A model generated the notes under the pieces. That model saw nothing but the letters and a program-made list of their open reading frames with translations, searched no databases and was not told where the DNA came from. A program made the translations under genes and the position numbers. Positions 3,201-38,200 of a DNA stretch of 64,000 nt are shown one piece after another; the first letter of the stretch is position 1; each line of letters opens with the position of its first letter. This DNA is from Marisa cornuarietis (taxonomy: Eukaryota; Mollusca; Gastropoda; Architaenioglossa; Ampullariidae): the NCBI GenBank assembly GCA_004794655.1, contig SMMW01000622.1:7191501-7255500 (forward strand), in the 5' to 3' direction.

Positions 3201-4700
3201 TTCTGGTACGACTTGGGTACAGGTGACTCTTCTATATGCCCATTTGGTGGGAAAAGTATCAAGTTAAATAGTTTCTTGCAAAAACAATATGCATGCTATC
3301 AGCCAGGTAAGCTTAAACACATTCCTTTTAATAATTTTTCAGAAAATAAATGTTGTCTTAATATTTTCAAGTAACTTTAAAACCACACTACAAACTGAAC
3401 CTTACTTTCACTTAGGTATCGGACACATTCTTCATGTTGCTGTGAGAATTGTTCTTGCTGTGCACTGTTTTGTCGGGATGTTGGCCTCTTCCCATTAAAG
3501 ACTGGCCTGGGTGCGCTAGAAAAAGGCAGAATTACCTGAATGCCTTCTCATTTTTTAATAATTTATAAAAGTCTGAACTATTATACATTTTAAATGTTAA
3601 TACAACTCAAATTACCATACCCTGACTATATTTACTCTTATTTTCATCTAAATGATTAACGAAAATAGTAATAAATAGTTACCTGTTATATCCTTGAGAA
3701 ACAACACATTCATAAAGAAGAGTTTAATATTAAGTATCTACTATTTTCATCTGGTCCTTAAAGAAGCCACACTGCTAAAATTAGGAACAACAGACACTCT
3801 TGCTTTGTGATGGAAAATGAGCCATGTTCCACAAATCATTTTTAAAAAATGGTGCTGCCTATATACAATGAGTTAATACAAAAAACAACTGGAAAGGGTA
3901 AAATAATATTAGCAACTTGCTAAAGCACTCTACAAAAGAATATAACTGTAGTTTCTAGTAAACAATAGAAAGGATTCACTGTCTTTTCAAGACTTTGTAT
4001 ACATGACTTACTGAAGAATATCTATGCATCTTTCTGGATAGTCACCACTCCTCCCCAAAGCACCCTATTGCTTGCATAACATCCTGTATTGTATAACATT
4101 ATACAACAGAACCAATCACTTGTGCTTATAATATACGTTCGATTAAATCTGTTCCTGGAATCACACTTTCTTTAAGCAATCGCTTAAAAATACCGCAAAC
4201 ACCTTACGATCGATGCGTCTGAAACAAACTTTACAAAGCTTCCGCCTACTGCCAGTGACGGAATACCTTGTAACTAGTCTAATGCAATCTAACGTCAGGT
4301 CACTAAACTGTAGGTCAATCAAGAACACGTTGGAGCAGAAATCAAGACTGTAGTGTCCTTTATTCGGGCGGCTGAATTTTTAAACAAGGAAAAAAGTAAC
4401 CTAAATGGATACCTCCGTAAGAAAAACAGGTTAGGGAATGAAAGAATCATTGATTTACCTCATAGCGGGCCCAGGATCGTTTTTGCCCAAGCTGTATTCC
4501 CTGCTTTCGAAGCTTTCAAACTGTCTTTGAAGACCTTCGATCAAAAATAGTAAACATTTTTAAAACACTGAAATATTAAGTTTTTTAAATCACCTAATCT
4601 ACCTGGAAAAGACTATGAATTTCCCTCTAGGCCATCAAAATCTCATACCCCTTCGTGTGTTTGCAGCAATTTTGCTGGGTCCCTTCGGCAATGCATACAT
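207..4700 (-). CDS. MCRIP2: MCRIP1/MCRIP2-like protein, complete, 6 coding exons, about 114 aa
   Basis: Coding exons in transcription order are 4649-4700, 3683-3692, 3406-3515, 1917-1970, 747-794 and 207-277. All have GT/AG borders and the phases join, giving 345 nt including the stop. The start MYALPKGPSK matches the MCRIP2 start (MYTITKGPSK). Next come PRPVFNGKRP, the family signature HEECVRYLSENW (HEENVRF.SEAW in vertebrates), NPNPHLADFKPFDLEEYW and the end RRLTESS. PFDLE sits where vertebrate MCRIP1 has its CtBP-binding PIDLS, so CtBP binding may be weaker. In vertebrates these proteins link ERK signalling to CtBP repression and also occur in RNA granules; that role is family knowledge, not visible here. 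The DLEEYW tail resembles MCRIP2 (DLDEWW) more than MCRIP1, but one invertebrate gene probably precedes both. The long intron 3 (between 1970 and 3406) carries an antisense LINE fragment. Exon 3 has a second copy at 6625-6734. Confidence 0.92.
2283..2874 (+). mobile_element. 3' end of a non-LTR retrotransposon (RT C-terminal fragment plus UTR)
   Basis: From 2283 the plus strand reads VLESVYRSLIESILTFNMSV and continues through WFGVLSVKDKA to SFLPTAIALLN and a stop at 2633. This is the post-RT C-terminal region common at the ends of LINE ORF2 proteins. About 240 bases of UTR follow, with a TG run near 2640, ending in a short repeat tail (gtattgtattgtatt) at about 2858-2874. The fragment is 5'-truncated and lies antisense in MCRIP intron 3. 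Its last bases (catagacaataaagat) also end the SINE at 11826. The clade is not assigned. Confidence 0.7.
3683..3692 (-). other. 10-nt microexon (coding exon 2) of the MCRIP gene
   Basis: Exon 1 (ends 4649) leaves a phase-1 base and exon 3 (starts 3515) needs two bases before it, so a direct join would shift the frame. GATATAACAG lies between a pyrimidine-rich acceptor (gtttctcaag) and a strong donor (gtaact). It supplies exactly the 1-mod-3 length needed and reads G-Y-N-S across the joins, giving RRGYNSAPRPVF. Phase and both splice sites are seen in the sequence; use in mRNA is inferred. No other short exon between 3540 and 4640 was found that repairs the frame. Confidence 0.7.
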
Positions 4701-4965
4701 CTCTTGTCTCTGGCACGTTGCGCATATTTACTGCGCAGCGAAGCCATGCGTCCTTTCGAAATGAAGGCACCGTGCTTATTGCAAGCTCTCGGAAAGGTGA
4801 ATGAATAAGTCATGTTAAATTGTAGACATAGCCCTAACTCATTTCTGTTGTACTTTTATAGAGTCGTAAAATAATAGCAATTACAATCAATTTATAAGAA
4901 AATGTAGAAAACACGTCGACAGTTTAAAAGATATATATAGACTTAAACAGCAATTACTAATGTAA

Positions 4966-5036
4966 GCGCCGCTGGTGTAGTGGTATCATGCAAGATTCCC
5001 ATTCTTGCGACCCGGGTTCGATTCCCGGGCGGCGCA
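4966..5036 (+). tRNA. tRNA-Gly (anticodon CCC)
   Basis: This is a complete 71-nt cloverleaf. The 7-bp acceptor stem is GCGCCGC (4966-4972) with GCGGCGC (5029-5035), plus discriminator A at 5036. The anticodon stem is CAAGA (4991-4995) with TCTTG (5003-5007), and its loop TTCCCAT gives anticodon CCC at 4998-5000. The T arm is CCCGG-GTTCGAT-TCCCGGG. Both internal Pol III promoter boxes are intact: A box TGGTGTAGTGG and B box GGTTCGATTCC. A T run for termination starts near 5042. It lies 265 bp upstream of the MCRIP start codon on the opposite strand. Its 3' half recurs inside the transposon at 6927-6968. Confidence 0.97.
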
Positions 5037-5397
5037 TGTTTATTTTTGGGGAATTTTTATTTTCTTTAGATCATTTTTTTTATTTCTTTCTTAAGACTTT
5101 GTAATTTTTTAATAAATATTCTTTCTTCCCACTAACTTATTTTCTAATGTGAATTTATTTCCAGCGAGAAAGCTATATCCTAGTTTGCAAAGCTTGCTTT
5201 GTCCATCATTAATGAACTATGGCACAACTTTCAACAACTTAGAATGCGTCTCCTAGACTGCATATTATGCAATTGTATGTAGTGCAAATGTGTGCGTGAG
5301 TATGCATTCACGCACGCTTTTGTGCTTGGGTGTGTCTGCGTATGTGTATGCTTAATTGCAATTGCCTCAATCATGGTAAGGATATCTCTACCATAAC

Positions 5398-5935
5398 TTC
5401 ATCGATTTTAAGCAGGCTTCCGTTTAGTCTAGCACGAAGGTCTGTGGCACCTTGGTGTGGAAATTCAACATTGAGGAAAAACGCATCCGAACTATCCTAG
5501 AGCTGTACGAAGGTTTCAGAAGCTCGATGTGATGGTCGAGCTTTATTCGACGACGGTGGCCGTTCGCCAGTGCTGCACTCAGTTTCGGTGCTGTTCGACA
5601 TTTATCTGAAAAAGATCATGCAAAATACACACCAAGACCATCACACCTCCGTCTTAATCGGAGGGAAGCCACTAAGCAACCTACGCCTTCCTGATGACAT
5701 CGATCTCACGGATAACAGCAACAGCGAGTTACGACCTAACACACAAGCTCGCCCCCAGAACGAGCCGATGCGGGATGGAAATCAGTACAGAAGAGTAAAG
5801 TACGTGAACACGAACGGGCATGGATAGGCGAAGATCCGCATGAACGGTGTACAGCAAAAAGGATCCTCTTTGCTGTACATCTTGAAGAGGTGCAGAGCTT
5901 ACAGTATCTGGGCTGAAAAAAGATAGGATTTTATG
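5398..5935 (+). pseudogene. Decayed LINE reverse transcriptase fragment
   Basis: Several RT landmarks survive in shifting frames. IDFKQAF near 5400 corresponds to the first catalytic aspartate block. FDIYLKKIMQ at about 5596 corresponds to the LFNIFLE block. IGGKPLSNLRLPDDIDL near 5660-5710 corresponds to the FADDID block, with F replaced by LP. RMNGVQQ follows near 5840, then LQYLG near 5890. Stops and frameshifts rule out function. The order of blocks matches RTE-like or craniate-type LINE RTs. The open frame at 5570-5827 is part of this relic and not a host gene. Confidence 0.65.
5849..5880. repeat. Short perfect inverted repeat (hairpin)
   Basis: TGTACAGCAAA is followed, after a short spacer centred on a BamHI-like GGATCC, by its reverse complement TTTGCTGTACA. 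It lies at the 3' end of the decayed RT relic. No function is evident. Confidence 0.6.
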
Positions 5936-6624
5936 GTGTTTAATGGACCGATCAGTAAAGGATCGATATATTGATATTTTCTGCCATGGTTCACGTCGTC
6001 ATTGAGTAAACGTTAGTTGCTGCTGTCAGCTGACGCAATAATTATCCAGAACGGCAAATGTTCGGGAATGCAAGTAAAGAGAGTGAAAGAGTTAGCACTG
6101 CGCGGGCAGGCCGATCGAGCTGCATGTGTTAAATGAGTAACAAGCTTTTTTTTACAGTAAGACTTCGACACACGAGGGAACCAATATACGAGTAAATCGA
6201 GATACGAGCCAGAAATTCGTGGAAATTTTGTTCTTACTTACGAGTGAAAATTCGATATACGAGCTCGTCATTTATATACCGTAGCGTGAAGACAAAAAAA
6301 AAAAAATGTCGTCTTAGTGAAAATCTAAATGTTTCAAGTTAAAAACTGTGTAAATAGTCTTGTCTCATCAGCTGATTCATTCAGCACCTGTCTGCTCCCC
6401 GCCTCCCTCCCTCCTCCCCTGCCATCTGCCTACCTCCGTTATCGACAGTCTTCGTCTCCTCCAACTCGAAGGTAAGATTGATAAAAATAAGATATTCTTT
6501 ATTATTTTATTATCTGTATATTATACCGTATTTACATATAAATTGTGTTGTTGTGGGAAGGTTGGAACGCATTAATCCTATTTCCTTTATTTTTATTAAA
6601 ACCACACTACAAACTGAACCTTAC

Positions 6625-6734
6625 TTTCACTTAGGTATCGGACACATTCTTCATGTTGCTGTGAGAATTGTTCTTGCTGTGCACTGTTTTGTCGGGATGT
6701 TGGCCTCTTCCCATGAAAGACTGGCCTGGGAGCG
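6625..6734 (-). pseudogene. Captured copy of MCRIP coding exon 3, both splice sites intact
   Basis: This matches 3406-3515 base for base except at two positions; one is silent and one changes N to H in PVFNGKR. The acceptor (tttttctag) and donor (gtaagg) are both kept, and the frame is open. It lies upstream of MCRIP exon 1 on the same strand, so the normal MCRIP transcript would not include it. It would be spliced in only from a start upstream of 6734. It is most simply a dead exon copy. Confidence 0.85.
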
Positions 6735-6926
6735 CTAGAAAAAGGCAGAAGAATTACCTATAATTGCCTTCTCATTTTGTAATAATTTATAAAAGTCTGG
6801 GGCTAGCTGCACAACATGTTTCTACAGCTTAAAACTTTTTTAAAGAAGGAAATCTAGAAACTGAAGCTTTCAAACTGCCTTTGAAGGCCTTCGATCAGAA
6901 ATAGTAAACATTTTTTAAAACACTGA

Positions 6927-6968
6927 GATTCCCATTCTTGCGACCATAGTTCGATTCCCGGGCGGCGC
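6927..6968 (+). pseudogene. 3' half of tRNA-Gly(CCC), copied inside the transposon
   Basis: The copy begins inside the anticodon arm (gattcccattcttgcgacc) and runs through the T arm and acceptor 3' strand to the final A. It lacks the D arm and A box, and three bases around the T stem have changed (accatagttc instead of acccgggttc). It cannot fold as a tRNA. The flanking downstream DNA also matches that of the intact tRNA. Confidence 0.85.
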
Positions 6969-7499
6969 ATGCCTATGTTTTGGTGATTTTTATTTTCTTT
7001 GGATCACTTTCTCTTTTTTGTATTTATTTCTTAATAGTTTGTAATTTTTATTTATATTATTGTGCCATTAACATCTACTATACAGTGCTGTATATTATAC
7101 CGTATTTACATATAAATTGTGTTGTTGTGGGATGGTTGGAACGCATTAATCCTATTTCCTTTATTTTATATGGGAAAAATAGTTTTAATATACGAATTTT
7201 TGTACATGCGAGCTCGGTTGTGGAACGTATTAAACTCGTATGTAGATGTACTACTGTAGTTTAAAAGATGCTACAATGGGAAGTGCCAAGACACTGTGTG
7301 TGGGGGCACGGACTTTTAATGTAAGTCCGTGTCCGTGTGTGGGGGAATGGAGGCTGCGTCTTCCAAGCAAGGTGTGGTAATCACATTTTTGTTTGTTTGT
7401 TTGTTTGTTTTATTTTTGTTTGGTACCTCGGATTTTTGTACAATTTGAATTTTTTGCATTTTCTATATTATAGATTCCTATTATTAATTTCTTTTTATA

Positions 7500-10400
7500 A
7501 GCTATTAATAAGCACAGTCAACGACCTATGGGAGCAACATTTCTACTCCCATTGTGCCACGTCTCTCTTACACATGAAAGCTTTTATCAGTGCCATTAAT
7601 CGCGCTTTATCCTGTTGTCGACCAGAAGTGTTGGTATCGGCTACCATCTCCCACGTGTTCGCACGCATCGTGCGGGTCCGCCGCAAACAGAGACAGATTT
7701 GTGCTATTAGTGGCGGAACTAGTAGCCGGACTCCCTTCGGAAAAGAAGTGAGCGAAACTGGGAATTTTTGCAGTCTAATTCCAGTGACTTTTACTCGTGT
7801 CAGCATTGTGTTCGTCTAGTGTAAAGGTTGCGCTATTCACTGCTCAGTCAGTTGGAAAGACAGCAAGAACGAAACGGTCAGCCATTTATAGTGATTACAT
7901 TCTCGAGAATGGAATAGACATTTTTTGTATCACTGTCGTCATTAAAACTTGGCTACGAGAAGCTGGTGATGAGGCAAAATGTTGTAATTTGACACCACCG
8001 GGCTACACCCCCACTTCTTTTCCTCGATCGTGTTACAGCAACGCGCGGAGGAGGTATTGCCTTTGTTGTCTGTGATCGATTGCAACCACACATCACCTTC
8101 ACAGACAGCTTTCCCTTCAACCCTACATCGTTCGAACTTACACAACTGTCATTCAGGTCTGATCAGTCACATGTCAACGTGTTTTGTGTATATATACCGA
8201 CCGCCACCAGCGAGAAAGAATCAACTCGCGGACGCACTTTTTATCGAGGAATTTCTAGATTTCCTTGAGCATGCCAACAGCTTGAAGGGATCACTTCTTA
8301 TTGTTGGTGACTTTCACTTTCATTTCGAAACACCAACACAATTCTATGTGTCGAAAGTGCTCGATATTATTGGAATATTTAATCTAGCCCAGGCTGCTCC
8401 GGAACCCACTCGCACTCAGGGCCATATTGTGGACTGGGTGGTCTACAGAGATACGGAGATTGTCTTCTTAAGTCGCCAACCGTTCACCATGTATTGTCTT
8501 CGGACCATTTTTGTGTGTTGTGCATACTGGACCTTGCCAAACCAACCATGCCGCCTGCTTATAAGGAAGTGCGTAGCCTGGCCTCATTAAACATGGAGGC
8601 TCTTAAGGCTGACCTTTGCGCCAACATTCTGCATGAATCTATCATTACACAGCTGTTCCCCACTCTCTGTACTACGCTGGATAGTCACGCCCCACTGACT
8701 CGCCGCCTTGTCTCCAGGCATCCCTCCTCTCCTTGGTATATCGCCGTGGGTCCTGAGCTTCTGGAAGCCAAACGTGAACGGAGACGAGCAGAGTGGGTGG
8801 CGAGTAACTATAGACTCAACGTGCACCGTCAGAATTTTCAGGCAGCCAGGAATAATGTTACAGACATTGTTCACCGTACAAAGTCAACGTTCTACTCTGA
8901 AAAAGTACTTGCCTGTAAAACCATTAAACAGTTATTTAATGCTAGCAACAGTTTGTATGAAAAAAAACACTGGTACTCCACTCCCGTCAGTGTTTCCTGC
9001 ACAAGAACTCCCACAGAAATTTGCTGATTTCTTCACCAGTAAGATTGTATTCATACGCCAGAAGCTTGACTCTGCTGTTGTTCCAATCTCTTCTGTGTCA
9101 GATACACGTGAACTTGATCCTATTCCCTCCTCTCTTCTTGTCGATTGTCTAGACGTCCTGTTACCACATATATAACCTATATCATTAATCCTTCTTTCAC
9201 GTCTGGGCACTTTCCTCCCAAGTTCAGGTCGGCTATTGTTCGTCCACATAAAGAAACCATCTTTAGATCATAACTACTTAAGCAATTACAGACCAGTTTC
9301 AAGCCTGTCGTTTCTAAGGTTCTAGAAAAGATCGTTCTTTCCCAGCTTATTGCACACGTGGAGCAAAATCATCTTCTTAGTCCCTTTCAGTCGGCATATA
9401 GAAAAGGTCATGGCACTGAATCTGCACTTCTAAAAGTTGTAAATGATCTACTCCTCAGTGCTGACAATGGCAAAGTGTCATCTCTGGCGTTTTTAGACTT
9501 GTCAGCAGCATTTGATACTGTAGATCATTCTATACTTCTACACAGACTTCAGCACTCTTTTGGTATTCATGATGTTGCTTTGTCCTGGTTTCGATACTAT
9601 CTCATGGACCGAACCCAAACTGTGTGTGTGAATGGTGTTTACTCCGATGCTTCTGTCCTGAGATATGGTGTCCCGCAGGGATCAGTATAACACGTATAAT
9701 ACTTTTTGTGTTATATACCTCCCCTCTGTCTGATGTCGCATCATGCCATGTCACATGTGAGTTATGCTGATGATACACAGCTTTATCAGTCAGCTCCACT
9801 TACTGTACTGACACGGACAAAGAAATGCATTGATTATGTAAAGTCCTGGATGCTCCAAAACAGATTGCAACTAAATGATGACAAGACTGAACTGCTACTT
9901 ACTTGTCCAAAGAAATTTCTGAGTCATCCTTCTCTCCCTCAATCTCTGTCTATAAACAACTCAACTATTCCTTTCTCTACCACTGTCCGCAGCTTGGGTG
10001 TCATTCTTGATCAGACTTTGACTTTTCATAAAGCATGCTGATGTATGCAGAAATGCTTACCTTGAACATCCTAGGATCAGTACCATTCGTCACAATCTCA
10101 CAACGGATGCATCTAAAACTCTAATCTGTGCCTTTGCGCTGTCGAGGGTGGACTTTTGTAATTTTCTTTTAAATGGAATTCCCAAGTACCTTCTTGACAG
10201 ACTTCAAAGAATCCAGAATAACGCTTCGCCTTATCTGCAAACCATCTGGATATGAACATATATCACCTATAATACGCCCTCTTCAATGGCTGCCAGTCGT
10301 GGACCGTATAGCCTACAAACTTTCCACTTTAACTTACTCTGCCGTTTCTGTTACTGGTCCTCGGTACCTCTCAGAACTCACTCCCATCTATACGCCCGCA

Positions 10401-29200: not shown

Positions 29201-32200
29201 ACTCAAATTAGCGAAAGATATGGCAAACTTTTATTTGTGAAATGATTGGGTTGCTGGAATAGAGCACACCACAAGTATGGTTAACCAAATAAGCAATAAA
29301 ACTTGGTCTGTTCATTCAGGGAGTGTTCTCCCCATGAATTCTCTTAGTCTGATAACTACTATCTAACTACCTAGTTTTTTTTATCTAAAAGCTGCAAAAA
29401 ATAAGATGATTGCTACACTGCAGACTACTCATTTGTTGCATGTTCTAATACAGATTTTCATAACAAAAAAGAAAAATAAGACAACTCAAATATTTTAATT
29501 ATGCAATAATTTCTTGCACAATACTGCAGTATATTTTATTAAGAATTCTCCTTTAAAAGTTTTATGAATTATAAACATCAACACTTAAAATAAAAATGTC
29601 TAAAATTTACACACCATTGAAAATACTATTTTAGGTAGTAAATTTTGTTGTTCAACTTTTTATCAGATGATACGACTGTATGGCAATCACTGTATTATCC
29701 ATCTCAATTCCAGTTGCGTGCTCCTAATTGGACTAATGACCAACGAGCACACAAATTCCACCCCCTTCCCAAATCCGATCTTGTCAGACTAGCGAGTGCA
29801 CCTGAACAGTATTTCGAGTGAAGGTGAGGAGCAGCTCAAGATATTAGCAGTTTTGGAGTGACCTAGTTGAATCTGAAATAATGTCAGATTTAGATACTAC
29901 TTTGATAAATATACATAAGGTTCACAAGCTTTTGTTATATTGTTTTGATGATAAATAAATTCATTTTTCACACCTACCCTCACAGATTTTCTTTCAAAGC
30001 CTTGTGTTGATACTGACTCTTGTTCGAGCCCATTTGAGCCTTAGTTATGCACAAAAGAAACGTGCAATGTTGTATTTTGTTGGAATCAGCATTCTCTTAC
30101 CTAACTCGCTACGCGAGTAAAAGGCCTATGCTAAAAATAGTTCTAAAACTATTTTCAACTTTCTTGGGTCACCCATTCCAATTTAAATCATTCATGGCTA
30201 TTGGCTTATATGGTAGTTTCCGGTGAAAAGAAAATTCAAACGATGTGTTTCAACTGATTCCCGACATTATTTGTCCCTAACCACCTGCAGCCATCTACAA
30301 ACACCAGGCAGCAAAAGCCATATGGTGAGCATGCAATCCTGGAGATGTAGTTGCACCTCAGATGACACAAAGTTTATCCATACAGCTTCTTAACAGCAAA
30401 CACTGTATCAACAGTGCACAAAAGAATGAAGTGGATAAAATCTGTTCTAATGAAACAAAGCTGGTCAGGTGAGCTCACTGGTCAAGAAGAGCAGTATCAG
30501 GGGCGAGTTGTATGCTCACTGGTAACTGGTAACAATTGTCCAATTAGGAGCAAACAGCTGGAACTGAGGTGGCTAATAGGCTGATGTCTACAGTCATGTG
30601 ATCTTGTATGATATTAAGAAGAAATAGCATTTCTTAAAATTATTAAAGTTTGTTTCTCTTATAAAGTGACAGTAAATATTTTTAATGACACAAACAAATA
30701 GAATATGCATTTCAATATTTTACTAGAAAAATATACAGAATTTCAATATCAAAGAATTAATATTCCCCACCTTGCGCTGCACCATGCCAAACTGTACTCT
30801 ACATCGAGTACATGTCTCCCCATCTTTCCACTCTGGAGCTTTCTCTGAAGAGAACATAGCATCAGCCTCCTTCAAGACTGGGAACTTGTGCCCTGCACAT
30901 AAACCAGGACAGTGCAGAACATGAATCAAGGGTTTATAATTAAAAAAGAAAAACAAACAAAACTTTGCTGTTATGGACTAAAATCTTCAAGATTGGGTCT
31001 CTAGGCAGTTTAGCCTGCTTTATGCTATAATAAATATTTACCAGAAAAATGTATGCACCAAAAAACAAGGCACAAAAACACTTATTTTACAGTAAAGACT
31101 CTGGGTACATGCTACCTCCAAATTGGTAGTGGGGCGACCATCCCTAACCCAGCGGGTCCCCAGGTGGCGGATAGGGGAGTGGCCCTTAGATATAAGGGTT
31201 AGCTGCGAAATAAGTCTAGGTCCCTTATGGGTCCTCGATCGAATAAGCAGTCCCGGACCAACTGGCGGTACACCTAACAGGATGGGGCGGGTAAGTAGGT
31301 GGCACTACTATACCCCACCAAAATCCCCCAGATGTCCCAGGACGGGTGTATCATGCGAGTAAGAGCCGCGCTATAAGCTCTAGCCCCCTGTGTTCCCAGG
31401 GCCAGTTTCTGGACTAGGAACGGGAGGAGGTTTGGCCCCCTACGTGCGGCATGCAGGCCCACCGGTGGGTGGACAAGCCCTGGTGCCCACGAACCAAACC
31501 CCGAGGTGGTTCCTTGGCACCAAAAACCAGCCTTGTGCTCCCAGGGATAGGCTTTTGAGCCAGAAGCTAGGAGAAGGAAAACTCTGATATAACACCCGGC
31601 CAGAGGATGGTCGTCAGCCTTGGTTGGCAAGTCTTCTACGAGAAGGAAAACTCGGACAAGAGAAACCAACGCCGAAGACGGATGCGCTGGGCCAAAGTGC
31701 GCGTAACGGCAGTGCAACGCTTTCCGCTCAAATGATGGATGACAACAGATCAAATCGTGATGATGCTTTACCTGTGGAGTCCCCCCGGGCAGGTAGAGTG
31801 TCGGGTCCCGAGCCTCAACGGGATCCACCCCAAGTTACCGGCGGTCACCCCGTCCCGCGATGTGGAGTCAGGTCACGGAAACGGAGGGTAATGGCTATTG
31901 ACCAACGAAAAACAACAGCCCGAACAACCAGACCTCTAAACATCCTTCAATGGAATGCTGAAGGGGTTTTCAACAAAAAGCTACCTCTCACTGAGAGGCT
32001 ACATACAGACAACATAGATGTAGCCTGCATCCAGGAAACCCATCTTAACCCAAATCATCGCTTTGTAGTGAGAGGTTACCAAGCTTTCAGGCTGGATAGG
32101 GAGGAGAGACACAAAGGAGGAATTCTGTTTTTAGTCAAGAACAATATCCCAGTACGAGATTTCACTATTGACACAAATCAACAGTCGGAGATCCAAGGCA

Positions 32201-35200
32201 TAACCTTTCTCTTGAAAAAAACAGAAATAAACATAACCAACCTATATTGTCCTCAAGACAAAGAACTGTCCCTCCACCTCATCAACATTGCTGAGGAAAA
32301 TACAATAATCCTGGGAGATTTCAACAGCCATTCTACCTGCTGGGGATACACAGCGACCGACAAGAGAGGAGAGGAGGTAGAAGACTGGCAGATAGAAAAC
32401 AGACTGATGCTGCTGAATGAACCAGATGATCCGCCAACATACTTCTCCAGAAGATGGCTCACATCTACCCCAGACCTTGCTTTTGCCACCGGAGACCTCA
32501 CAAAAAAAGCTAGAAGAGATGTTCTGAGCCAGCTAGGTGGAAGTGACCACAAACCAGTTAAAATCAGTGTTGAAACAGATGAGGAATCTCAAGACCCCAA
32601 ACTGTTTCCAAGGTGGAACTACAAGAAGGCCGACTGGGAGATGTATGCCTCTCTGACTGATGTATACACCAAAAACAAGAAAGACCGCAACATCAACAGA
32701 CTAGTCAAGGACTTGAACAGGGCCATCCTAAAAGCCGCCCAAGAAGCCATACCTCGAGGTGCAAGACGAAATTACAGACCCTACTGGACAGAAAAGTTGC
32801 AGAATTTAGAGAACATCGTACAAAAGGCCAGAGAAGAAGTGGAAACAACATTACCTTGAAAGCTGCCACTGCTAAATACAAAAAGACATATCTGCAGGCT
32901 GCAAGGAAAAGCTGGAGGGAGAAAACAGAGCAACTCAATTTGGATAAAGATGGACAAATGCTCTGGAAATTAACAAAAACAATGAATGATGAATGTACCA
33001 GAGGAGCCCCAGTCGTCATTGAGCACAACCAAGAAATATACTCGGGAAGAAAGGCAGCAAACATCTTCATAGATAAATATGAAGATTTCAGTAACATCAC
33101 TGTGCCACCAGAACAAAAAGAACAAATACGACTGGAGACCAAAAATCAAGAAGAAGAAGAAGAGAAAGAAGTAGACGAAGTAATGACAAAACCCTTTTCC
33201 ATGCAGGAGCTACAAGAAGCGCTGAAAGGAAAAAAGTCACCAGGGCCAGATAAGATCACGAATGAAATGCTCTTGCATCTTGGCTCCAGAGCCAAATCAG
33301 TCTTGTTGGACACCTTCAACAACAGCTGGAAAAGTGGACATGTACCACAAATTTGGCGCGAAGCAGAGATGGTACCAATCCATATGAGAGGAAAAGATCG
33401 AAAGAAAGTTGAAAGCTATAGGCCCATCAGCCTCACCAGCTGCATGGGAAAGCTAATGGAAAGACTGATCAATACTCGGCTCAAATGGTACATGGAAAAG
33501 AATGAAGTCTTTGCACCACAGCAGGCTGGCTTCAGAGAACATAGGTCTACCGAAGATCAAGTGACCTACATTGCACAGAAGGTAGAAGACGGATTTCAGG
33601 AGAAGAAAATCACCCTAGCAGTGTGGGTTGATATGGAACGAGCCTTTGATCGAGTGTGGAAGGATGGACTGAGATTGAAGCTCCGTCAGTGTGGCGTGGC
33701 AGGATCCATGCTTAAATGGATAGAAGAGTACCTGCACAACAGGCAAGCCAGAGTACACCTCAGTGGGCAGTACAGCAGGAAAAAAGTACTGCGGGATGGC
33801 GTTCCACAGGGCGGAGTTCTCTCCCCTACATTATTCCTCATCTTCATCAATGACATTGTTCGAGATCTCCCGAAAAATGTCTTCGGAGCCATTTATGCAG
33901 ATGATCTCGTGCTCTGGTGCACAGAAGAGCACATTACCACAGCAAACTACAGAATGCAAGAAGCACTGAAAGTCCTGGAAGCGTGGACTCAGAAGTGGCT
34001 CGTGGCTATCAACACACAGAAAACCACCTACACTATTTTCAACCTGTCCCCCAAGACACAGAGGGCAACGCTGAAGATCAATGGACATACATTGCCACCA
34101 GAAGACACCCCCACTTACCTAGGTGTGGCCCTTGACCGTCATCTCACCTGGAAGCAACACCTGGAGAAATCACAGGAACGGCCTGGCGCTGATGAAAAAG
34201 CTCACAAGCTCAACGTGGGGAGCAGATGCGAAGATTCTGAAGAGACTGTACACAGAAAGAGTCAGACCGGTACTGGAGTATGGAATGGCAGCATGGGGAA
34301 CTGCAGCTAAATCGAATTTCGACAAAGCATCCAAGGTCCAGAACCAGGCAGCGCGTATCATCACTGGTGCCATGCGATCTACACCCATTTCTGACCTGGA
34401 AACCGCCACTGGCCTGGAGTCGCTGGAATCAAGGCGCGACACCAAGATCCTGACACAGTCTGCAAAGCTGAAGCGTCTGTCAGACCATCCAATGAAACAA
34501 AGGATGGAACAACCCACAAAAGGAAGGCTGAAGCGCTCCAGCTTCATCCACCAGGCCAGACTGCTGGAGCGAAAGAATCCAGACCTCTTGGATCAAGGAC
34601 CAAAGGAAATTCCTAGGACGCAAAACCCTGCCTGGAAGCGTACTAGCGAGCCTCGAATCCAACTCAGCATCCCTCAAGTGGAGAAGAAGGGCACACAGAG
34701 CGACAAGGTACGCAAGGCCCTTGCCCTGGAGCACATACATGATCACTATACAAGACAAACATGGACTCATGTCTACACCGATGGATCTGCTACGGAGGCT
34801 GTACGAGATGGAGGAGCCGGTATCTACATCAGATACCCAGGTGGGAATGAAAAAGAACTGTCCATCCCCACTGGCAAGTATGCCACCAACTACAAGTCAG
34901 AAGCGGAAGCCCTCCGTACAGCTATAGCCACAGTGGCAAACAGCACCGAGACGTCGGACTCCATTGTTTTCTTTTCTGATGCCCTCTCCGTCCTCCAGGC
35001 CTTGCAAACATCCAAAAACAAAGAACTAGATGACCTGTCTCTTGAACTCACCTCCCTCTGCACAAGGCACACTGTCACACTGCAGTGGATTCCTGCACAC
35101 TGTAACCTTCTGGGTAACGAAGCTGCCGACAGGCTGGCAAAAGAAGGATCGGCAAAAGAACAAGTCAACAGAGTTGTGTCCTTTGCAGAGGCAAAAACCA

Positions 35201-38200
35201 TAATCAAGGCAAAACAATGGGAGATATGGCAACAAGAGCACCCCAACTACAACAAGATGGATGGCTACCATCTTCTGACCAGACGTGAGCAGGTTACCAT
35301 CTTCCGCCTGCGTACGGGACATAACCGGCTAAACTGGCACCTTTACAACAAATTCAAAATTGGCCAGTCTGGCCAGTGCCCTTGCGCTACCGGTAATATG
35401 ACCACAGAACACATATTACAGGCCTGTCCCACATACGCCACCCTCAGGAGGAAGTACTGGCCGGAAAAAACGGCAGTGACCCAAAAGCTCTACGGTGCCC
35501 TGGCGGACCTGCAGCAAACAGCAACCTTCATCAAGGAGACTGGCCTCACCATCTGAGCGATCGAGAAAAAAAAAAAAAAAAAAAAAAAAAAACAGTAAAG
35601 ACTTACGTCCGTCCACTTACTCTAGCCTTAAGTATGGTGTGTATATGGGCTTGCAAGCAAATGTGTGAAAATGAATGCTTCTCGCATGTAGTTAAACGCT
35701 GCAAAAAATAGATCCTATGGCAAAATAAATATACAGAGGTAGAAGGTAGAGGATGCTTGACTACAAATGTTAAAGAGAAATGTAGCTCATCTATGTCCGT
35801 TTAGCATGCCAAAGTGGTTTGACATCGACACAGATGCTACAATGATTCAGGTGCAACAGCCCTAGTACAAGAAGCCAGGCCCCCACATCAGGCAGTTAAT
35901 TAAGGTCTCCGCATATTTTATAATTCACTTCAGGAATATTAAAAGCTTTGATAATATTTTAACTTACCTTCCATCTTCAGCAGGTGGAATGTATCTTCTA
36001 CAGCTCTGTAGCTTGGTTCATTACGGAAGGCATGGGACCACGTTTGAATAAGTTCAAGAATCTTTCCTTTGACAGGATCTGAACGGACCTAGTAAATCAT
36101 TTAATAGGTTTAAGCAATTAGTTTACTTCCACTTATGATGAACAGTTTAACTGGTCAATTGTAAAACAGACTATTTACTGTTATTAAACAGTACTTATTC
36201 CATGTATAACACTGATGAAAACTAGATTAGAATGATTAGTAAATAGTTCCAACATTATTACCTTTACTTGATCTTTTAGAAATTCCATAAAATCCTTAGT
36301 AGCAACTTCTTGATGAAATGGAGTCCCACAGTTTTTAACACAGGTCTCCAGGACCTAAGACATGTGTTAACATAATTTAAATTCTCAAAGTATGCTAAAC
36401 AGAAAAAAATCTAATGCAACACATTATGTGAAAGTAATGCACTTCAAATGCTCTGATGCTGTTAAAGTCAGCATGGGATGACGATTCCTAAGACTGAACG
36501 CACTGACATGCACAGGATAAAAACATTTCAAAAGCAAGTACTGAAATATATAAGACCAATCATTCTGGATGAAATGCTGGGCTGGGCTTTGGAAATGAAT
36601 GTGATGACACTTATATAGGGGAAGCAGATGGCCGAGTGGTTAGAGTGCCTGTGTCTGAACTGAGAGAACACACTGGTTCAGTTCACGAAAGCAAACTTCC
36701 CCAGTTGACCCAGCTGGTGAGAATGGGTACCTGATTCCATAGAAGGTTGGGGAAGACAAGGCAGTAAGGGATAGGAGATGGGCACCACCCTAATGTAAAG
36801 CTGGCCCCGAGAAAAGTAAGGTCTCTAACACCTCACCCTTCAATGACCTGAAAAGGTTAGGGGATTACCTCTACCTTACATTTATATAATGAAAGTCATG
36901 TGATCTTTGATGTCCTAAGGTTCCTTCATGACAGCTCACTCATTAAGAGCACCCACAAATAGAATTTGTGTGGTGCTGACATTACAAGTTGAAATGAGGT
37001 GCATTAGCAGAGGGGTGTTGGGTATGATAACAGAGGGGAGTGGAGCCCAAAAGACTGAAAAGAAAGGCATCAGGCATGGAGCTGTGTACTGCTGATAAGC
37101 TACCTTTAATAAACCAGGTAACAAAAATATTTTAGTTTTTTTCCGTCAGTTAAAATTAGGTACAAGCTTAAGCCATGATCAACTTTAAAGCTCTGCCCAG
37201 TTTTGGCACAACACATTGAATAGTGTTGAATGTCAGCCTTCCTATATCAAATTTATTTCTTGACAGATTTAAACATCTTACTTGTAAGGCATAGGAAGCA
37301 ACATGGGGATTATCAACTGCGATTTTCTTCCTAATACCAAGCACAGCAAGTTTTGGTCTGAAACATAAAACAATCTTTACAGCAACCCATCTATTAAACT
37401 CATATTTTAAAATGTTTCATCACTTTTTAAAAACATGTTTAGGTTAAAAGGCTTTCAATGAAAGTTTCACTTATATGTCTGTCAGAGAGAATGAGTAATT
37501 TTGACATGCATACTTTGCCCTGGCACAAAGCTCATGGAAAAAAAAGTGTCGTAAGTCGCAATTATAACCAAGTGAAAACTACAGATTTCAACAATTACAA
37601 CAATGACAGGATTTAGAATTTATCCTTTTTCTCACATGCCATACTTAACTAAACACAAGTTCATGATCTGTATGAACCTAAAAATTTTTTGTGGGCATAC
37701 TAGACATCAGAATTATGCTGACTCTGAATCAGGATGGTCATAGGTTATTTTGACCCAAGACCATATTGCCCCACAGCCTAACTCAAACCACCCCAGCTAC
37801 GTCAATATCATCCCAACTAAGATCATATATTCACATGTAAGCTCAGCTGCCTTTTTTAAACAGTCTTGTAAATAAGTTCAACCACCATTTTACTGAACAA
37901 AAATGGCTGCTTGCCAGGAGGGAAATAGGTGTTTTACACCACACCAGTAACTAAGGCTATATCATAGCAAAGAAGCCAGTCCTGTAAACATATGCCACAT
38001 GCAGAGAAAGAACAGCATGTTCAAGTCGAGATCTGAACCCAGGACAACCAATTCTCACTGTCTTGGTGACAGACACTAACTGCTACACCAGTGGACCACC
38101 CTATTACTGCTTGGCAATGCACATGTAGAGAACATACCTTATAATGACACATCAACACAATTCTCTCTTTAAAGAATTTTTTTTAAATTAAAGATTCTCT

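Follow-up and report, generated by a model that had tools for sequence, protein, structure and literature searches.

A non-autonomous Tigger-like transposon of the gastropod Marisa cornuarietis was found to carry, at one internal point, a patch made of copies of its own sequence and of the neighbouring MCRIP–tRNA-Gly(CCC) locus. We consider it probable that a break in the resident element was filled from these two sources and that the filling was subsequently eroded. All coordinates refer to the window, that is the whole stretch of 64,000 nucleotides analysed.

The element and its genomic family

The element spans positions 6155–7256, begins with CAGTAAG and ends with ACTACTG, and is flanked by TA target-site copies at 6153–6154 and 7257–7258. 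Its terminal inverted repeats align to each other. From the TA duplication and the CAGT/ACTG inverted ends, which are the mark of Tigger/pogo elements, we take it to be Tigger-like. A search of the organism's own genome (534 Mb, 572 contigs) gave 704 candidate places, and 40 of these were scored, namely the window copy and 39 others, all of which were retrieved; a consensus was derived from 18 of the 39. The family is approximately 567 bp long, and the mean distance of the 39 other copies to the consensus was 6.0%, a value inflated by a few badly aligned copies. TA flanked 24/39 of these copies on both sides and 37/39 on one side or both, showing that the TA-flanked repeat family proposed in an earlier sequence-only reading is real. 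A patch shared by most family copies would have spoken against that reading. The patch was absent from all 39 other copies compared (39 of the 704 candidates), ruling out the patch as a component of the repeat family, and a copy with the same patch elsewhere would presumably have outscored those seen.

Consensus 355–359 was matched by 39/39 of the other copies. The 40-bp bin at consensus 320–359, corresponding to the window near 6480–6515, is rich in indels (10 of at least 5 bp among the 39 copies). Two bins at the right end of the consensus held 12 and 13 such indels, partly from lost right ends, and in L014, L021, L025, L030 and L032 the alignment to the consensus faded near the right end. 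One further copy, L012, has a different insert of 616 bp at consensus 404–414 (L012:653–1268) flanked by an 11-bp element repeat; this insert looks retrotransposon-derived because of its flanking repeat and its similarity to repeats in L061–L063.

Other features were noted in the window around the element. The interval separating the element from the tRNA gene contains a near-perfect 32-bp palindrome (5848–5879), and a reverse transcriptase frame of a retrotransposon (9358–9690) lies approximately 2 kb past the element, beside a frame (8030–8590) with no Pfam match. Another retrotransposon, at 31624–35556, is of the non-LTR type; its overlapping open frames encode endonuclease, reverse transcriptase and RNase H domains.

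Geometry of the insert

The left part of the element (6155–6515, plus strand) corresponds to consensus 1–355 and the right part (7048–7256, plus strand) to consensus 359–567. Between consensus 355 and 359 lie 532 bp of inserted sequence (6516–7047), and just 3 bp of the element (ATA) were lost at this point. With the insert removed, the window copy measured 570 bp compared with 567 bp for the consensus and had 30 mismatches in 562 positions compared (5.3%). The copy without 6516–7047 is an ordinary family member, and the question therefore became that of a 532-bp insert at a single internal point.

The first piece of the insert is an 80-bp block (6514–6593, plus strand), a templated copy of the element's own 7088–7167 (consensus 398–477) joined at a shared CT. 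The two blocks form a direct repeat in which 79/80 positions are identical, and the right one is native. Consensus 356–397, 42 bp expected before the block, is missing on the left side, which fits the left block being inserted sequence. The patch had previously been placed between two 80-bp copies belonging to the element. The repeat stands, but its left member is part of the insert and the element resumes at 7048 rather than at 7088. The block is followed by a 2-bp filler, TA (6594–6595), for which no template was found.

All pieces of the insert lie on one strand and in the order of their donors, with offsets of 3219, 3224, 2354, 1933 and 574. The collinearity with nearby donors claimed in the sequence-only reading thus holds, with the distance of the MCRIP and tRNA donors from the patch measured as 1.9–3.2 kb instead of 1.6–3.2 kb. 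The bases shared at the joins, as judged by eye, were CT, CTG (also a transposon target), G, A and TT. Closer donors were sought in 306 kb (200 kb around the window, the window itself and other stretches), and only a 63-bp piece recurred elsewhere; pattern scans of viral contigs and genome contigs gave 0 matches.

Pieces copied from MCRIP and from the tRNA gene

The MCRIP gene lies on the minus strand from ~4700 to ~208. Its product belongs to FAM195/MCRIP (Pfam PF14799, E 1.5e-29) and is 99% identical with the Pomacea canaliculata protein over the 95 residues given, which makes an apple snail the probable host. With the P. canaliculata protein as a guide, the donor exons were set at 3406–3515 (exon 3) and 4459–4534 (exon 2), both on the minus strand. 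Positions 6596–6799 (minus strand) are a copy of intron 3, exon 3 and intron 2 sequence from donor 3377–3575, with 195 matches, 4 mismatches and 3 gaps. As the earlier reading had recognized, the 110-bp exon 3 copy within it (6625–6734, minus strand) retains the same acceptor and donor splice sites and an open frame; it differs from 3406–3515 by one synonymous change and one N-to-H change. The local donor was the sole match of the 6596–6799 piece besides itself among the 40 of 424 candidates that were scored. The second MCRIP piece (6863–6928, minus strand) had been read as a stretch upstream of exon 1; it is instead the end of intron 1 with 26 bp of exon 2, copied from 4509–4573 with 61 matches, 4 mismatches and 1 gap, and the local donor was its sole genomic match (3/3 places scored). 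Since intron sequence was kept on both sides of exon 3, a retrocopy origin of the MCRIP pieces was excluded, and the patch was copied as DNA, by something like break repair.

The remaining pieces come from a tRNA-Gly(CCC) gene at 4966–5036 (plus strand). Its 3′ half (donor 4994–5036) is copied at 6927–6969 (plus strand) with 40 matches and 3 mismatches, confirming the half tRNA reported from the letters alone, and its 3′ flank (donor 5037 to ~5109) at 6970–7049 (plus strand) with 63 matches, 8 mismatches and 3 gaps. Chance similarity of the pieces was excluded by the window alignments and by shuffling of the tRNA flank, for which 0/300 shuffles were as good. The three places scored in the genome search that covered the exon-2 piece were the patch, the exon-2 donor and a place on contig C559, the local tRNA match coming from the window. 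The place on C559 is a second tRNA-Gly(CCC) (L079, G000:C559:1187280-1187600), which also matches the tRNA body and has an unrelated flank. The copied flank scored 47.0 against the local gene and 14.5 against the C559 gene, the latter score being reached by 138/300 shuffles. The C559 gene was therefore rejected as the donor, as it shares the body and its flank is no better than chance. At three adjacent bases of the copied half (6946–6948) the sequence is unlike that of either intact tRNA-Gly(CCC) gene; this cluster is therefore likely to have changed in the copy.

A second small transposon within the patch

The stretch between the two MCRIP pieces includes 63 bp for which the window offers no source. 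These matched 39 further scored places (40 of 424 candidates scored) at 87–97%. When six of the matching places were aligned, the sequence was common from one and the same left boundary and different before it. In 5/5 longer stretches (L074–L078) the repeat was ~252–261 bp long and its beginning recurred, inverted, at the opposite end, the inverted ends being GGGCTAGTTGCA. Of the triplet pairs flanking it in these five stretches, read by eye, three were CTG/CTG and the other two CAG/CAG and CTG/TAG. Positions 6800–6863 (plus strand) thus represent the initial 64 bp of a second transposon, next to a CTG at 6797–6799.

The second transposon begins exactly at its terminus, and the exon-3 piece stops exactly at the donor CTG (3573–3575). 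The join at 6799/6800 therefore looks like a transposon insertion and not like a template jump, and recognition of the 63 bp as a transposon end led us to abandon a history of four template jumps. It follows that the copied intron ran past 3575, which makes a single continuous copy from 3377 to ~5107 the simplest history. The second transposon was either already present in the copied allele or arrived later.

Probable repair of a break in the resident element

According to the reading that we favour, a resident Tigger-like element of ~567 bp would have broken at the AT-rich, indel-prone site between consensus 355 and 359. Repair synthesis would first have copied 80 bp of the element, starting 39 bp past the break, then proceeded in one forward run through the MCRIP–tRNA locus, from position 3377 as far as 5107 or beyond, and finally returned to the right part of the element. 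The second transposon would subsequently have entered the CTG in the copied intron 2, unless it came with the copied allele, and two deletions would have removed most of it together with the copies of 3576–4508 and 4574–4993. We infer a single event, a continuous run of 1.7 kb and this order of the later events, and the synthesis may have been that of SDSA or of microhomology template switching. The run could have been less continuous, in that the small transposon may predate the copying and the two gaps may be template jumps.

A break in the resident element is the simpler reading because the element is complete across the insert and lost 3 bp, and repair from its own and neighbouring sequence explains its completeness, the small size of the loss, the bases shared at the joins and the proximity of the donors. 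The argument from the 3-bp fit is weakened by the indel-rich stretch at the break, and this bears on the explanation that was our first reading, a tandem duplication. Here, 3377–6593 would have been doubled in head-to-tail orientation, one boundary lying within the element; three deletions would then have removed parts of the second copy (most of the small transposon with 3576–4508; 4574–4993; and ~5110 to consensus 358), and the left copy would have lost consensus 356–397. Duplication followed by deletions predicts collinear pieces on a single strand, including the 80-bp repeat, as observed, and a patch piece ending inside a transposon argues for one or more true deletions. However, two additional deletions are required, and the loss on the left (from consensus 356) must by chance start within 3 bp of the point at which the element resumes on the right (359). 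It was this fit, revealed by the family consensus, that led us to downgrade the tandem duplication; since indels are frequent in this stretch, the coincidence is less improbable than it would otherwise be and the duplication stays alive, as an unlikely account.

Divergence and age of the pieces

The pieces fall into two classes of divergence. The 80-bp pair differs at 1/80 positions and the exon-3 piece at 4/199 (together 5/279), compared with 15/179 for the exon-2 and tRNA pieces (Fisher p 0.0015); for the exon-2 piece on its own the contrast was not significant (p 0.07). An 80-bp pair of the element's age would be predicted to show 8.5 differences, against 1 observed (P 0.002), and the 2/89 differences in the intronic portions of the exon-3 piece are likewise too few for that age (P 0.004). 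The exon-2 and tRNA pieces fitted it, with 19 differences expected and 15 observed (P 0.21). On these counts, the 80-bp and exon-3 pieces look younger than the remaining patch. A single event therefore needs faster change in the tRNA region or later gene conversion, the alternative being two events. Faster change beside tRNA genes is documented (PMC8113476, citing Thornlow 2018), and such change would make the tRNA part compatible with one recent event.

The fit of the exon-2 and tRNA pieces to the element's age makes capture near the time of insertion possible. The element would in that case have excised, and the gap would have been repaired from the sister or homologue with a detour through the MCRIP–tRNA locus, so that the capture was linked to the transposase. 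The 15/179 differences are compatible with this, but both sides must then have been copied to within 3 bp of one internal point, and neither the 80-bp pair nor the intronic portions of the exon-3 piece seem as old as the element; we regard such a course as rather improbable. The sequence-only reading had proposed gap repair with template switching as part of transposition. Its first part, copying at the DNA level by break repair, is supported by the retained introns, whereas the tie to transposition is not, since an element complete across the insert with 3 bp lost favours a break in a resident copy.

Two repairs at one weak spot, an older one giving the exon-2 and tRNA pieces and a younger one giving the 80-bp and exon-3 pieces, would explain the two divergence classes (p 0.0015). 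The younger insertion would need to strike the older junction, and the exon-3 piece meets the transposon end at its natural CTG target, from which it follows that this piece originally extended further and probably belonged to a single run. Two such repairs are very unlikely. It is also doubtful, with a small chance of being right, that gene conversion with neighbouring sequence repeatedly refreshed the exon-3 piece and the 80-bp block, or that a second break at this spot was again filled from the same locus; if so, the transposon would be a local bank that swaps sequence with MCRIP. Judged from the exon coordinates, the exon 3 copy ends in the phase taken by exon 2, and in-frame splicing of it would be conceivable.

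Comparison with known systems

The patch belongs to a class described in Pace 2009 (PMC2671141) and Tan 2021 (PMC8277862). Pace 2009 reports that interrupted TEs reveal 824 proximal repair duplications (RDs) in human alone, including 20 two-donor chimeras and two full exons, with microhomology of 2–9 nt, deletions of 1–15 nt and filler of 1–68 nt at the breakpoints inspected. The window patch resembles the RDs set out there in being an insert within an otherwise complete TE with a donor less than 5 kb away, in the microhomology, small deletion and filler at its joins, and in containing a whole exon with flanking introns, as those occasionally do. Measured against the description in that paper, the insert in a continuous TE is 532 bp (at least 50 bp in Pace 2009), the donors of the exon pieces lie within 5 kb and at only one other place among the places scored, CT and TT are shared, ATA is lost and a 2-bp TA filler is present at the joins, and the introns copied around exon 3 speak against retrotransposition; the unpatched counterparts compared were paralogous copies of the element (39/39). 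Unlike those vertebrate cases, it occurs in a gastropod, combines one exon with a portion of another and with half a tRNA, was later hit by another transposon and would stem from a run of ~1.7 kb, of which ~454 bp are left, compared with a proximal maximum of 619 bp in Pace 2009.

Tan 2021 reports 370 Pack-TIRs in 100 animal genomes, with the parental copy within 15 kb for 160/281 and a Pack-Tigger1 in gibbon, and prefers gap filling without transposition for single-copy Pack-TIRs; its main text has no words beginning with 'mollus' or 'tRNA'. As in these animal Pack-TIRs, which are mostly single copy, host DNA lies in a TIR element with a nearby parent and an internal break, and both ends of one TIR element flank host DNA within the 100–5000 bp stated there. 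Unlike them, the eroded patch would fail the 80–120% patch/parent length screen of Tan 2021, as the donor span 3377–5109 is 1.73 kb and 6594–7047 is 454 bp. Plant Pack-MULEs, as presented in the same paper (PMC8277862), likewise hold host gene fragments within TIR elements, but the window element is not a MULE and the patched copy was seen at one place among the scored copies. The view in the sequence-only reading that such capture is known mainly from plant MULEs is outdated in light of the counts in PMC8277862 and PMC2671141. The discontinuous duplications and deletions with microhomology of a few bases resemble MMBIR as presented in Hastings 2009 (PMC2621351); in contrast with that model, the gaps in the window at least partly look like later deletions rather than template jumps.

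Taken together, the locus provides a well-resolved mollusc case in which a host exon would have entered a DNA transposon through the mending of a resident element from adjoining DNA, the route probably being break repair rather than a moving element collecting genes. It also illustrates the erosion of such a patch, which bears on event counts, since at least one published screen, as described in Tan 2021 (PMC8277862), discards eroded patches.
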